Positions 7,292 through 11,674 of a stretch of DNA of 64,000 bases are shown here, piece after piece. Location: positions 992,001 through 1,056,000 of the forward strand of contig NZ_JAIOAO010000002.1 in NCBI RefSeq assembly GCF_021190955.1, in the 5' to 3' direction. Each line of letters opens with the position of its first letter. Within the stretch, counting starts at the first letter, position 1. A model generated the notes under the pieces. That model saw only the letters and a program-made list of their open reading frames with translations, searched no databases and had not been told where the DNA came from. This DNA is from Parachryseolinea silvisoli. GTDB taxonomy: Bacteria > Bacteroidota > Bacteroidia > Cytophagales > Cyclobacteriaceae. A program made the translations under genes and the position numbers.

Positions 7292-7419
7292 ATAAGAATC
7301 AAGCCGGAAGGTGGCGGCAACCATGCTGTAATGGTGCGGAATTCGGCGATTTTTGCATGTATCAGGCTGGAACAGAGGCTCCCCTGTAATTATGAGTAGG
7401 ATTAAAACTTTTTTTCGGT

Positions 7420-7427
7420 TACCTTTG
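7420..7427 (+). promoter_or_regulatory. -7 box upstream of duplicated leader, copy A
   Basis: TACCTTTG followed by CA, identical to the box that precedes leader copy B on the other strand. No TTG is found at the -33 distance. Confidence 0.6.
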
Positions 7428-7432
7428 CAGAA

Positions 7433-7575
7433 ATCAATTGCGGATACCCAATTCTCAGATCGTTTTCCATTTGGCGCGGTCTTTAATTCTCTCCTCAGTT
7501 AATTCGGGAAATAGTCTTTGTTTGTACTGCCTAATCCGCACGACTGGCTTGTTTTCTTTTAGATTTGTTTAACGC
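7433..7575 (+). promoter_or_regulatory. Conserved leader RNA, copy A (RRM locus)
   Basis: This stretch matches the 5' leader of the rhlE gene on the opposite strand (10862-11006). Shared blocks in the same order are TCAATTGyGGATA (7434-7446), CGGTCnnTAATTCTCTCC (7477-7494), TTAATnC-GG, a GGCTT/T-rich tract, and a GATTTGTTTAACGC-like end (7562-7575). The spacing from the second block to the end is 98 nt in both copies. It is probably a structured 5' UTR controlling the RNA-chaperone genes, perhaps with temperature or by RRM autoregulation. Confidence 0.65.
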
Positions 7576-7702
7576 AATGTGCTGAATACACAGTCATGCA
7601 GGAGACACGTCAAAACAAAAGATAACGTCAAAATTTCGTGTGGAAGGTCGGGATTCATTGCTGATTGCAAGTCAAAGAGCAAAGATCTAAGACATAATTC
7701 TC

Positions 7703-7966
7703 ATGAATATTCACCTGAACAAGCCGTACAGCATTAATACGGACAAATTAAAGCGTTATCAGGCCCATTATCAGATATCGGCCACTGAGATGCTTATTGT
7801 TCCGCAGCGGGCCATGGGTGAAGAGTCGGCCTGTGATGTACGATGGGAAGACATTGATGGAGCACGGCATGTAATGCACAATGTTATGTTCCGAAATGAA
7901 AATCTTGTGGCGTTAGATTTTCTGCTTTATGATAATTTGTATAAGTTGTGGAAGCACTACTACTAG
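7703..7966 (+). CDS. Small hypothetical protein
   Basis: 87 residues, beginning MNIHLNKPYSINTDKL and ending in aromatic-rich LYKLWKHYY. No signal peptide, membrane segment or recognisable motif. It lies between leader copy A and an RRM gene on the same strand, 76 bases before the latter, so the two may be co-transcribed from the promoter at 7420. Function unknown; the ordinary amino-acid composition and clean start make it more likely real than not. Confidence 0.55.
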   Translation: MNIHLNKPYSINTDKLKRYQAHYQISATEMLIVPQRAMGEESACDVRWEDIDGARHVMHNVMFRNENLVALDFLLYDNLYKLWKHYY

Positions 7967-8042
7967 TACCGAATTTAGATGACGGTAGTCGTGGCATACT
8001 TTTTAACGAGAAATATTTTTAACATTCGAAATATTTAAAACA

Positions 8043-8393
8043 ATGAACATTTATGTAGCAAACATCCCTTTCAAAGCCTCGGAAGGCGAGTTGAAAGAAT
8101 TATTTGAAGAGTACGGTGACGTGACCTCTGCAAAAATCATTTTAGATAAGGAAACACAGCGGAGCCGTGGTTTCGGCTTTATCGAAATGCCTGACGACGC
8201 TGCGGCGCAGCAAGCAATAACAAGCCTTAACGGCTTTAGCTTTCTTGGAAAAGAACTGAGCGTTAACGAGGCACGGCCGAAAAGTGACAATCCACGCGGC
8301 GGTGGCGGCGGCTACGGTGGTGGCGGCGGCAGACGCGGTGGTGGCGGTGGCTACGGCGGCGGTGGTGGCGGTGGCTACAATAAAGGCTGGTAA
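8043..8393 (+). CDS. Glycine-rich RRM RNA-binding protein
   Basis: 116 residues. A single RRM fold occupies residues 1-80, with RNP2 IYVANI (3-8) and RNP1 RGFGFIEM (about 41-48). The tail is nearly all glycine with Arg and Tyr (GGGYGGGGG repeats), the architecture of bacterial and plant cold-induced glycine-rich RNA-binding proteins. It is expected to be an RNA chaperone in the cytosol. A second, tail-less RRM protein and a DEAD-box helicase lie 1-3 kb away on the other strand, and both loci share a leader sequence. Confidence 0.93.
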   Translation: MNIYVANIPFKASEGELKELFEEYGDVTSAKIILDKETQRSRGFGFIEMPDDAAAQQAITSLNGFSFLGKELSVNEARPKSDNPRGGGGGYGGGGGRRGGGGGYGGGGGGGYNKGW

Positions 8394-8404
8394 GCATTTT
8401 AAAG

Positions 8405-8431
8405 AGGCCCTTCGTAAAAGGGCCTTTTTTT
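8405..8431 (+). terminator. Rho-independent terminator after RRM gene
   Basis: Stem AGGCCCTT (8405-8412) / AAGGGCCT (8418-8425) with a 5-nt loop and a run of seven T. It stands between convergent genes; the T-run favours the + strand. Confidence 0.9.
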
Positions 8432-8436
8432 ATCTT

Positions 8437-9300
8437 TTATCCCAGGTACGTTCGTAACTGTTGTGCCTGGCGGGACCGCTGTAGTCGCTGCGTAGCATGG
8501 TCTTTAATTTGCCGTACACGTTCGCGTGTAATGGAGAACCGCTCGCCGATTTCGCTCAGTGTGAGTGCCTGCTGATCATTCAGACCATAAAAAAGTGTCA
8601 GCACCTCGCCTTCGCGGGCAGTCAATACCGACAATGCCAGTCGAATTTCGACCTGCAAAGCGGCGCTCATCAGCGATGCGTCGGGTGCGCTGGATGTTGC
8701 GTCAGGCAACGTGTCGATCAGCGATAAGTCATCGGTGTTTAGTACCGGTGCATCTGCCGAAACAGACTTTTGTGAGATAATAAGTGTATCGTCCACGGTG
8801 TGTACCGTGACGTTTAGTATTTCCGCGAGCTCATTGTTGCTTGGCTCGCGCTGCAGGCGCTGCTCGAGCTCTGCTTGCGCCTTCAACAGCTTGATGATAG
8901 AACTGACGCGGTTTAGTGGTAGTCGCACGATTCTGGCTTGCGACGCCAATGCGGAGATAATCGCCTGACGAATCCACCATACAGCATAGGAAATAAATTT
9001 GAATCCGCGCGTTTCGTCAAATCGTACGGCGGCCTGGATCAGGCCAACATTGCCCTCGTTGATCAGATCGTTCAGCGCCAGGCCGCGGTTCTGGTATTGT
9101 TTTGCGACGGAGACGACAAAACGCAAGTTGGCTCTTGTCAATTTCGCCAGCGCCACCGCGTCCCCTTCGCGTATTCGTTTTGCCAGCTCCACCTCTTCGT
9201 CCATTGTTACAAGTGCCACTTTGCCTATTTCGGATAAATAGCGGTCCAGCGACTGACTTTCGCGGTTCGTGATCTGCTTACTGATTCTTAGTTGTTTCAT
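8437..9300 (-). CDS. RpoD-like sigma-70 factor, probably a paralogue of the primary sigma
   Basis: 287 residues, the length of Bacteroidota primary sigma factors. Region 1.2 ([12 protein letters not shown]), region 2 ([47 protein letters not shown]), region 3 and region 4 with a helix-turn-helix ([18 protein letters not shown]) are intact, and it ends in the typical TYLG. Region 3 ([19 protein letters not shown]) looks divergent from what I recall of housekeeping RpoD. It is last in a probable three-gene run rhlE-RRM-sigma with gaps of 73 and 56 bases. The context suggests an extra group-2-type factor tied to cold or RNA stress rather than the housekeeping copy, but that is inference. Confidence 0.85.
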
Positions 9301-9356
9301 TTCTCAGAGTTGCTTGACGAAAGTGTGCGGCCGCGGTGCGATGGGCACGATCGAGG

Positions 9357-9611
9357 CTACCGTTTTGCCTGTTTTTGGCGTGCCTCGGAGATAAACATTT
9401 TGCGGCCGAAAAACTCTACATTTTTTAATTGGCGAATGGCCTCCTTTGCTTCGTTGTCATACGGCATTTCCACAAAGGCAAATCCCCGAGATTCACCCAC
9501 TTGCGGGTCAACAATGACGTTCGCGGATGACACTTTTCCAAACTCTCCAAACAGTGCCTCGAGTGCCTGGTCGTTCACCTGGCGGGCAAGGTTTCCTACA
9601 TATAAATTCAT
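9357..9611 (-). CDS. RRM RNA-binding protein without glycine tail
   Basis: 84 residues, one RRM: RNP2 LYVGNL (3-8) and RNP1 RGFAFVEM (about 41-48), ending in a short basic tail (ARQKQAKR). The start at MNLYVGNL matches the other RRM protein (MNIYVANI); a longer frame upstream would add unrelated residues overlapping rhlE. It lies between the DEAD-box helicase and the sigma factor on the same strand and likely shares their transcript. Expected role: cold-type RNA chaperone. Confidence 0.9.
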   Translation of the reverse strand: MNLYVGNLARQVNDQALEALFGEFGKVSSANVIVDPQVGESRGFAFVEMPYDNEAKEAIRQLKNVEFFGRKMFISEARQKQAKR

Positions 9612-9648
9612 GTGAATACTACTAGTTACAATAAAAAATAGAGAACCT

Positions 9649-9670
9649 CCCGCACAGTTGCCTATGCGGG
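9649..9670 (-). other. Hairpin between rhlE and RRM genes
   Basis: Inverted repeat CCCGCA / TGCGGG with a 10-nt loop in the 73-base gap. On the minus strand a T-rich stretch follows after about ten bases, so it may be a weak attenuator or processing site rather than a full terminator. Confidence 0.4.
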
Positions 9671-9684
9671 AAATCAGAAGACGA

Positions 9685-10797
9685 TCAGGCAAAAGGATGC
9701 GCCAGCACTTCGATCTTACCGGGCGAAATGCGGTTCAGGTTCCGCAGCTGTCCTTTTTCCTCGTGGTCGCAAAACGAAATAGCCGTGCCCGAATTACCCG
9801 CGCGGCCGGTTCTGCCAATGCGGTGGGTGTACGTCTCGACTGTATCCGGCATCTCGTAATTAATGACAAAAGGAAGATTGTTGATATCGATCCCCCGGGC
9901 GGCAATATCTGTGGCGACCAGTACCCGTGTTGCGTTCTTTCTGAAATTGGTCAAGGCACGTTGCCGTGCTCCCTGCGAGCGATCGCCATGAAATGCCTCT
10001 GCCGAGATACCGGCTTTCACCAGATTGCGCACGATTTTGTCGGCGCCATGCTTGGTCCGGGCAAATACCATGACATTTCCCATAGCTTCGGCAATGACGT
10101 GGTGAAGCAATGCTTGCTTGTCCTGGCGGGAGACATGGTATACACCCTGCCGTATGACCGCGGCCGTTTGCTGCGTTGCCACCTTGATAGTAATCGGTGT
10201 GCGAAGCATGCTCGTTACCAGTGATTGAATTTCCGCGGGCACTGTTGCCGACAGAAAAATGCGCTGGCACTCACGTGGAACGAGTGAAAGTACCTTCCGC
10301 ACGTCGTGAATAAAGCCCATGTCAAGCATACGATCGGCTTCGTCGAGCACGAGAATCTGCAAGTCGCTCAGTTTTATTATCCGTTGGTTAATGAGATCGA
10401 GTAATCGGCCGGGCGTGGCAATGACAACATCCGCTCCCTGGCGAAGCTGTCTGACCTGGTGCATCTGAGAAACACCGCCGTAAACAAGGACACTCGATAG
10501 GCGTAGATTCTTTCCATAGAGCGTCAGGTTATCCGCGATCTGAATAGCCAGTTCGCGCGTAGGTGTAAGAATAAGGCCGCGAATACCATTCGATGGCTTT
10601 GCCTCTGAGAGTCGTTGCAGCAGCGGGATGGCAAACGCCGCGGTTTTACCGGTGCCTGTCTGTGCGGAAGCGAGTACATCGCGTCCCGTAAGAATGGCAG
10701 GAATGGCCTGTTCCTGGATGGGTGTAGGTTGATTGTAGCCTTTTTTCTGGAGCGCATCCAGAATAGGTGCACTTACCTGAAGTTTTTGAAATGACAC
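9685..10797 (-). CDS. rhlE: DEAD-box ATP-dependent RNA helicase, RhlE type
   Basis: 370 residues from the GTG at 10797 (MSFQKLQVSAPILDAL). All DEAD-box motifs are present: the Q motif (GYNQPTPIQEQAIP), motif I AQTGTGKT, PTRELA, TPGRLLD, motif II DEAD, motif III SAT, TDIAARGID and HRIGRTGR. The protein stops shortly after the helicase core, without the long basic tail of many RhlE proteins. GTG 10797 is preferred because it aligns with family N-termini; the upstream in-frame ATG (10860) adds atypical residues. It unwinds RNA in the cytosol, in ribosome assembly or cold adaptation. A ~200-nt leader precedes it. Confidence 0.92.
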   Translation of the reverse strand: MSFQKLQVSAPILDALQKKGYNQPTPIQEQAIPAILTGRDVLASAQTGTGKTAAFAIPLLQRLSEAKPSNGIRGLILTPTRELAIQIADNLTLYGKNLRLSSVLVYGGVSQMHQVRQLRQGADVVIATPGRLLDLINQRIIKLSDLQILVLDEADRMLDMGFIHDVRKVLSLVPRECQRIFLSATVPAEIQSLVTSMLRTPITIKVATQQTAAVIRQGVYHVSRQDKQALLHHVIAEAMGNVMVFARTKHGADKIVRNLVKAGISAEAFHGDRSQGARQRALTNFRKNATRVLVATDIAARGIDINNLPFVINYEMPDTVETYTHRIGRTGRAGNSGTAISFCDHEEKGQLRNLNRISPGKIEVLAHPFA

Positions 10798-10861
10798 GTA
10801 GAATGTTGTTAAGATATAGGAATGCCACACCGATCCTTTCGATGCGCTTATCCAGGGCATA

Positions 10862-11006
10862 GCGTTAACAAATTCAAAAACAAAAAGCCTTTTCGGCGGT
10901 CCGTTAGCAGTGTAACAACGACGTATCTCCTGGATTAATTGGGGAGAGAATTAGTGACCGAGCTTCTCCGAGGAAGAACCAGCGAATAAGAATATCCACA
11001 ATTGAC
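10862..11006 (-). promoter_or_regulatory. Conserved leader RNA, copy B (rhlE 5' UTR)
   Basis: Starts just after the TACCTTTG box and matches leader A: TCAATTGTGGATA at 10993-11005, CGGTCACTAATTCTCTCC at 10943-10960 (16 of 18 identical to copy A), and GAATTTGTTAACGC at 10862-10875. A TCTCC...GGAGA stem is possible in the middle. The rhlE start codon follows 65 bases later. Confidence 0.65.
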
Positions 11007-11010
11007 GGTG

Positions 11011-11041
11011 CAAAGGTAGCCTTTAAAAGGCTGTAAACCAA
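11011..11041 (-). promoter_or_regulatory. Bacteroidota-type promoter of rhlE
   Basis: On the minus strand: TTG (11041-11039), 20-nt spacer, TACCTTTG (11018-11011). The predicted start near 11005 gives a leader of about 207 nt before the GTG at 10797. Confidence 0.75.
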
Positions 11042-11168
11042 TCTGCGCATGTGCCGTGCCTGCGTGCATCTCTGCAAATCAGCTTAAAAACACACAATAA
11101 GCCCTGCATTGCCTTAAAAGGCGTTGCTAAATTATTTTAGCGATGCCACATGATCGAGTAATTTAGCG

Positions 11169-11176
11169 TACCTTTG
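11169..11176 (+). promoter_or_regulatory. -7 box for the 11336 gene
   Basis: TACCTTTG, exact match to the -7 consensus, about 160 nt before the start codon. No TTG at the ideal distance. Confidence 0.45.
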
Positions 11177-11335
11177 AAGACTTATTCAGCGCTACCATGG
11201 TCCTTTTGCATGAAATGCTTCCTCAAGGGCTTTGTTCTGTCGACACTCGATAAGGTAACTTTACATGCTAATCTCGTCCTGTTTAATGACTATGTGTGAC
11301 GAGCGAATAGTTTTTTACACATATAAATAAGAATC

Positions 11336-11674
11336 ATGAGCTACGATCTGCCCAACCGAAAATATGCACCTCTTTGGAGCAAGTATCGCCCGGTTATACT
11401 GAAAATGATGATCGACTCGCTTCAGGAGCCGCAACAGTACCAGCTTATGCGTCATGAATTTCAGGCGCTTGACGAGGGTAAGAAGAAGAGCATAGGTTTC
11501 AGCTTGCAGGTTTTCAAAAACAAGGCGCTGAACGATATCAAAAGTTCTGAAGTAGCCCAGGATTTATTGCACATGCTGCTGCAATCCCGTAAGGGTATTG
11601 AATTGATGGATAGCAATACGTTCGAAATTTCCCTTGACCGGCAGTTGATCTTGCACGTCAGCAAAGCGGCGTAA
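11336..11674 (+). CDS. Conserved-looking hypothetical protein
   Basis: 112 residues, cytosolic, beginning MSYDLPNRKYAPLWSKYRPV. Mostly helical by eye, with charged and hydrophobic residues alternating; no Cys and no recognised motif. Convergent with the next gene, 12 bases apart. Its promoter region is shared back-to-back with rhlE, which hints at a link to the RNA-chaperone island, but no function can be assigned. Confidence 0.65.
   Translation: MSYDLPNRKYAPLWSKYRPVILKMMIDSLQEPQQYQLMRHEFQALDEGKKKSIGFSLQVFKNKALNDIKSSEVAQDLLHMLLQSRKGIELMDSNTFEISLDRQLILHVSKAA

Follow-up and report, generated by a model that had tools for sequence, protein, structure and literature searches.

A shared promoter and 5' leader with a putative cis-acting hairpin ahead of cold-shock-type operons in one clade of the Cytophagales

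Two convergent operons with a common leader

The window analysed here, a stretch of 64,000 nucleotides (nt) from the genome of Parachryseolinea silvisoli (contig NZ_JAIOAO010000002.1, positions 992,001 to 1,056,000), carries two convergent operons, each headed by a copy of the same promoter-linked 5' leader. On the + strand, the leader is followed by a gene for a small protein (ORF87) and a gene for a protein with an RNA recognition motif (RRM), while on the - strand it is followed by rhlE, a second RRM gene and a gene for an RpoD-like sigma factor. The features of the two operons are as follows:

7397-7427, + strand: promoter of the + strand operon, with TAGG at 7397-7400, a spacing of 19 nt and TACCTTTG at 7420-7427; the same layout is found at 19 of 21 leaders
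7433-7513, + strand: leader hairpin, + strand copy, in alignment A10 (covariance models R1, 79.8 bits, and R3, 63.9 bits; both window copies are model seeds and their scores are high by construction)
7703-7966, + strand: ORF87, 87 amino acids (aa), first gene of the operon, with homologs in the leader operons of relatives
8043-8393, + strand: RRM protein with a Gly-rich tail, NCBIfam Rbp_regulator (PF00076, 76 bits; NF058537, 119.2 bits, cut-off 100)
8437-9300, - strand: RpoD-like sigma-70 paralog, closing the rhlE operon (Sigma70 regions 1.2, 2, 3 and 4)
9357-9614, - strand: second RRM protein, encoded between rhlE and the sigma gene (PF00076, 69.9 bits)
9685-10860, - strand: RhlE-type DEAD-box helicase (PF00270, PF00271)
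10922-11006, - strand: leader hairpin, - strand copy (R1, 89.4 bits; R3, 65.8 bits; likewise a model seed)
11011-11018, - strand: -7 element TACCTTTG of the rhlE operon, with TTGG rather than TAGG in the -33 region (promoter comparison, 21 leaders)

The shared leader, which had been proposed in an earlier note on this sequence, is real. Local alignment of the two copies gives a score of 71, against a mean of 18.0 (sd 2.4; maximum 34) for 500 shuffles, the blocks named in the note occur in both copies in identical order, and the 98-nt spacing it gave is correct if counted from the first letter of CGGTC to the last of AACGC (7477 to 7575; 10960 to 10862). The 18-nt core CGGTCnnTAATTCTCTCC (7477-7494 on the + strand; 10960-10943 on the - strand) has two exact matches in the 7.95-Mb genome, both in the window; at up to three mismatches there are 39 matches in the genome versus 40 in the reversed control, so that only the exact pair stands out. 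The block TACCTTTGCA is present as described, but is partly promoter and not all RNA: since it contains the -7 element, transcripts are expected to start downstream of that element, near 7433 and 11006. The AACGC end block is common to both window copies, and the conserved A10 positions of the wider family end before it. The note had further contrasted an RRM locus with a helicase locus. The RRM gene on the + strand is preceded by ORF87, and both operons carry RRM genes, the products of which are 42 % identical over 81 aa.

Distribution of the leader

The leader set comprises 21 leaders from 15 genomes (the genus of the window, Chryseolinea, Chryseosolibacter and near kin) and, within the sampled genomes, the element is confined to one clade of the Cytophagales. 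NCBI taxonomy places Chryseosolibacter in the Chryseotaleaceae and Chryseolinea in the Fulvivirgaceae, both belonging to this order. Blastn comparison over 39 relatives located leaders in two other genera, ahead of rhlE (L036) and an RRM gene (L037), while the matches L038 and L039 were read and judged not to be leaders. When model R1, built from four copies, was searched over 148 family genomes, 17 matched at E<=0.1 and eight of these were judged real; twelve of the eighteen non-seed matches (L049-L057, L059, L061 and L062) lacked a promoter and target gene and were dropped as chance. The pattern AATTGYGGAN{40,70}CTCCYCARTTA was matched nine times in 8/295 family genomes and not once in the reversed control. 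A scan of genome contigs from 84,980 species returned 22 stretches, eight with promoter and gene context (Fulvivirgaceae JP3-4, two Chryseolinea, Bacteroidetes SZAS-64, two Chryseosolibacter, and Flammeovirgaceae UBA4659 and UBA5867) and fourteen without it, which were discarded as chance.

Improved covariance models placed the leader in 5/7 genomes of the window genus, 5/6 of genus g16 and 3/3 of g98; among the other genera and families within those three samples it was found in G023 only, a weak match in G033 being set aside for want of a promoter. An order-wide search of 291 genomes under strict filters added nothing, returning only the window genome (G000), G023 and the chance-like L094, and L094, L099 and L103 were dropped as chance matches. 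At L103 (G000:C9:259726-259798), a gene of 288 aa is preceded by a long, nearly perfect inverted repeat, which matches the model weakly and for which no promoter was seen. Two low-scoring leaders, L102 and L060 (27.2 and 26.0 bits with model R2), were retained on promoter and gene context. L114 and L115, each from a different genome, have almost the same sequence.

The promoter

A -7 box resembling TAYCTTTR (R being A or G) lies 3-5 nt before the conserved motif at all 21 leaders, with L081 and L118 recognised under a relaxed pattern only. According to PMC6847099, the Bacteroidota primary promoter has the -33/-7 elements TTTG/TAnnTTTG, and TACCTTTG is this -7 element. The leaders broadly conform to TAnnTTTG and resemble the primary promoter both in the -7 box and in how far this box lies from the presumed start (PMC6847099). 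They differ from it in the -33 box: in place of TTTG, TAGG precedes the -7 box in 19/21 leaders, at 19 nt in sixteen and 18 nt in three, and TTG lies within 16-22 nt in 4/21. The two leaders that depart from the TAGG spacing are the window rhlE copy (TTGG) and L102. The promoter of the + strand operon is the only TAGG-N16-21-TAYCTTTR match in the window. As background, TAGG at 16-22 nt was found in 0/67 TAYCTTTR sites in 400 kb of the same genome, although only 15 of these sites (also none with TAGG) lie outside long open reading frames (ORFs), so most are not promoters.

Many transcription starts of Flavobacterium johnsoniae lie 4-5 nt behind the -7 box (PMC6847099). At the leaders the motif begins 3-5 nt behind the -7 box and the first helix of the hairpin (P1) a further three nt on, which would place the start of P1 only 1-4 nt from the mRNA 5' end.

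TAGG promoters also precede other genes. Of thirteen csp-type ORFs in the examined loci, six are preceded by a -7 site at no more than 420 nt, and four of these six also carry TAGG at the appropriate spacing; two of the four, at csp loci L134 and L149, had not been retrieved via the TAGG pattern. The csp genes of L196 (G000:C12) and L192 (G002:C72) follow a TAGG promoter and a conserved leader of another kind (GTTAAGAAATAGTGC...), which may be a further cold-shock leader. Furthermore, a closely similar TAGG...TACCTTTA promoter is found in six genomes of the genus (L191 at G000:C7:1308053, L176, L181, L182, L195 and L197), and at L191 it precedes the gene for a 350-aa, apparently secreted protein.

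Genes behind the leaders

The ORFs downstream of the 21 leaders were compared with the proteins of the window and with a small number of proteins of relatives. The first recognised gene encodes RhlE in eight cases, a fatty-acid desaturase in seven, an RRM protein in four, ORF87 followed by an RRM protein in one and ORF90 followed by a sigma factor in one. RhlE (or a fragment of it), an RRM protein or a desaturase is encoded downstream of 20/21 leaders, and the recurrence ahead of similar genes in relatives that the earlier note had put forward as a check is therefore observed; L102 and L060, having been retained by context, are not independent support for this association, which stands at 18/19 without them. 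The remaining leader (L148) lies close behind a desaturase gene and heads ORF90 and an RpoD-like sigma gene. Genes for RpoD-like sigma factors are found in 10/21 leader operons, several loci being too short to tell, and RRM genes in 11/21. A csp gene lies between the desaturase and sigma genes in L153, and another further downstream in L149. Genome G006 mirrors the window layout, with leader-rhlE-ORF87-RRM-sigma converging on leader-RRM-ketoacyl synthase. The leaders extend 139-377 nt to the next recognised gene; the median 5' untranslated region of Flavobacterium psychrophilum is 24 (PMC9723704). A conserved leader common to several cold-shock-type genes, as is typical of cold-shock mRNA leaders, is thus present. 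The regulon is wider than RNA chaperones and RNA-binding proteins.

Homologs of ORF87 (38-57 % identity) are encoded in the leader operons L146, L147, L150, L154, L081 and L085, and no Pfam or NCBIfam family was matched by ORF87. A remnant of rhlE behind the + strand leader was considered and rejected, as 7541-7706 has no similarity to RhlE. The true start of rhlE may be the GTG at 10797 (VSFQKL), judging by the relatives, which begin with MSFK, MSFQ or MTFK. Two of the eight RhlE genes are leader-headed helicase-C fragments followed by RRM genes (L150:1830-2414, 194 aa; L152:3866-4378, 170 aa), the former comprising only the helicase C domain by Pfam. A second small protein family (MAQRIIDRSYVGEVLQHIY...) lies beside sigma, ORF87 or desaturase genes (L150:3088-3360, L148:2090-2377, L147:2758-3030, L081:3171-3452, L151:237-494 and L154:2592-2852), and no Pfam family was found for the two members tested. 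In the window, ORF112 (11336-11674, + strand) has homologs near the leaders in L149, L153, L072, L085 and L080; in several loci these adjoin a protein of ~146 aa, the L085 copy of which ends in a cold-shock domain.

Sigma factors of the leader operons

Seven RpoD-like genes are located at seven places in the window genome, one of them with an internal stop. The housekeeping sigma factor is probably the one RpoD type whose sequence is the same, letter for letter, in five genomes of the genus. The nine leader-operon sigma factors tested share 64-72 % identity with it (window copy, 64 %) and do not form one clade (three changes on the tree). Their recognition helix, TRERVRQIK, is unchanged in 8/9, so that no altered promoter reading is visible. 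A csp gene directly follows the sigma gene in L120, L121 and L142.

The hairpin

RNAalifold, applied to 17 leaders (A10), itself proposes three helices, namely P1 (eight pairs), P2 (four) and P3 (four). In the + strand copy, P1 pairs 7436-7440 with 7496-7500 and 7442-7444 with 7492-7494, and P3 pairs 7458-7462 with 7477-7481 (hand register), while P1 of the - strand copy pairs 11003-10999 with 10941-10937 and 10997-10995 with 10945-10943. In A10, which is a model-fitted alignment, 96.7 % of cells pair, 6/16 pairs show double changes, and the covariation score is 0.288, compared to 0.124 (sd 0.018) for shuffles and at most 0.073 for slid controls. The compensatory changes in P3 (ACTGC/GTAGT, ACCCC/GGAGT, ACTAT/ATAGT and GCTGC/GCGGC; hand register) lend support to its pairing, and the loop between its strands ranges from 4 to 28 nt. 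The covariation that the earlier note had suggested looking for is thus seen as compensatory change in one helix, P3, but is moderate overall, with P1 near-invariant. An alternative hairpin, in which CUCC would pair with a downstream AGG(AGA) to the exclusion of P1, is not proposed: the pairing is striking in L073 and the window rhlE copy, but across 19 leaders the signal for it is weak (mean z -0.73, Fisher p 0.02).

Comparison with known leaders

Searches with Rfam 15, which includes the Chlorobi-RRM motif, gave no match in the window that exceeded a gathering cut-off; over 7300-11200 at E<=10 there were only three unrelated weak matches, and over 16 relative loci one tRNA only. The Chlorobi-RRM motif is situated upstream of RRM genes. 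It is tabled as a likely cis-regulatory RNA of Chlorobi (RF01697; PMC2864571). The leader resembles it as a candidate cis-regulatory RNA upstream of RRM genes, but belongs to another phylum and also has helicase and desaturase genes as targets. RF01697 matched neither the window nor the 16 relative loci. The cspA-type cold-shock mRNA leaders of Escherichia coli, with their cold box, act in cis after transcription on mRNA stability or translation. Like these, the leader is long, should have its conserved segment at the very 5' end and is common to unlinked cold-shock genes, but it has no sequence or Rfam similarity to them and a different promoter system, and its induction in the cold is inferred. 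The ompA leader forms a 5'-terminal stabilising stem-loop; hairpins of this type similarly leave few unpaired nt at the mRNA 5' end, whereas P1 is conserved in sequence and the leader family is tied to one functional gene set. A literature search for such leaders found none among the papers listed, and the regulation of the cold response in Bacteroidota is little described in the literature searched.

Interpretation and alternatives

On balance, we favour the reading that this is a lineage-restricted 5' leader and promoter of cold-shock-type operons, with a hairpin that acts in cis in the cold. The signal would be bipartite, with a promoter whose -33 box is unusual (TAGG, 18-19 nt, TAYCTTTR) and a hairpin (P1, P2 and P3) at the extreme 5' end of the mRNA, and would head operons for RhlE, RRM proteins, fatty-acid desaturases, cold-shock-domain proteins and RpoD-like sigma factors. 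The parts that we infer are induction by cold, the point of transcription start, activity at the RNA level and a protein partner. The leader is probably a cis-acting RNA: acting after transcription, the hairpin would set the stability or translation of the long-leader mRNAs when the temperature falls, and it would probably be bound by a protein, since the sequence of P1 is almost invariant. Promoter and hairpin together are probably an undescribed control element of the cold response. The earlier suggestion of a cis-acting RNA co-regulating RNA-binding proteins is partly supported, in the recurrence of the leader, and amended in that the similarity includes the promoter and the targets include desaturase and sigma genes.

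Several results weigh against this reading. The strong covariation comes from A10, itself fitted to the model; in A11, where the arms were aligned blind to structure, covariation scores 0.130 versus 0.102 (reached by 8/500 shuffles), with only two double-change pairs (reached by 138/500). Five of the eight P1 pairs never vary, and P1, being nearly invariant, is uninformative on its pairing, which is unproven. Folding often favours other structures for the window copies, with predicted P1 probabilities in the 95-nt fold of at most 0.25 (RRM) and at most 0.02 (rhlE), the latter copy reaching 0.72-0.87 in the 160-nt fold. When 19 leaders were folded at 4-45 °C, no sharp switch was predicted in P1, the mean probability of which went from 0.62 to 0.54 (95 nt) or from 0.62 to 0.41 (160 nt), and these predictions give no sign of an RNA thermometer. 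The leader is absent from the ten desaturase loci scanned in the same genome (of eleven matches) and from its two other RRM loci (L001 and L003). Finally, TAGGWWN{16,17}TAYCTTTR is not enriched in seven genomes of the genus, with 24 matches (seven of them leaders and two, L192 and L196, preceding csp genes) versus 20 in the reversed control; given this and the recognition helix unchanged in 8/9 cases, the idea that the leader-operon sigma factor reads TAGG is retained only in the tentative extension below.

Alternatively, the conserved part may act at the DNA level, as an extended promoter or an operator recognised by the RpoD-like sigma factor of the operon or by a transcription factor, with the hairpin-like symmetry that of a DNA dyad. 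Its rigid geometry, with TAGG at 18 or 19 nt and the motif 3-5 nt behind the -7 box, the sigma genes in 10/21 operons, the csp genes directly after such sigma genes at three loci and the scant variation of P1 would all suit such a DNA signal, but the variable P3 loop and the P3 pairing kept despite sequence change are more RNA-like and the unchanged recognition helix gives no sign of an altered -33 reading, and we consider this unlikely. Distinctly unlikely is an autoregulatory site for the operon's RRM protein (or RhlE or Csp), through which feedback would not necessarily be temperature-specific. Although RRM genes occur in 11/21 leader operons, the RRM protein belongs to Rbp_regulator and P1 conserves not only its pairing but its sequence, at least four leader operons with at least 3 kb of sequence have no RRM gene downstream (L153, L088, L080 and L149). 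That the window copies are alike merely as functionless duplicates of one operon start is scarcely credible, since, while their shared end block through the ATG (AACGC-ATG-CTG-ATA), not seen in the relatives read, suggests local duplication, this is refuted for the core, which recurs, promoter included, in 15 genomes belonging to several genera, ahead of the same classes of gene.

As a tentative extension of the favoured reading, which we regard as conceivable but doubtful, the Bacteroidota may possess a dedicated cold-shock regulon, in which the TAGG promoter is read or favoured by the self-encoded RpoD paralog and the 5' hairpin is bound by the RRM protein, RhlE or Csp as feedback on mRNA life or translation. 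The leader would link the genes for RNA helicase, RRM proteins, desaturase, Csp and sigma factors as members of one regulon and, once mapped together with its promoter, would provide a ready list of cold-shock operons. It would also serve as a defined RNA with which the binding targets of Bacteroidota RRM proteins may be tested.

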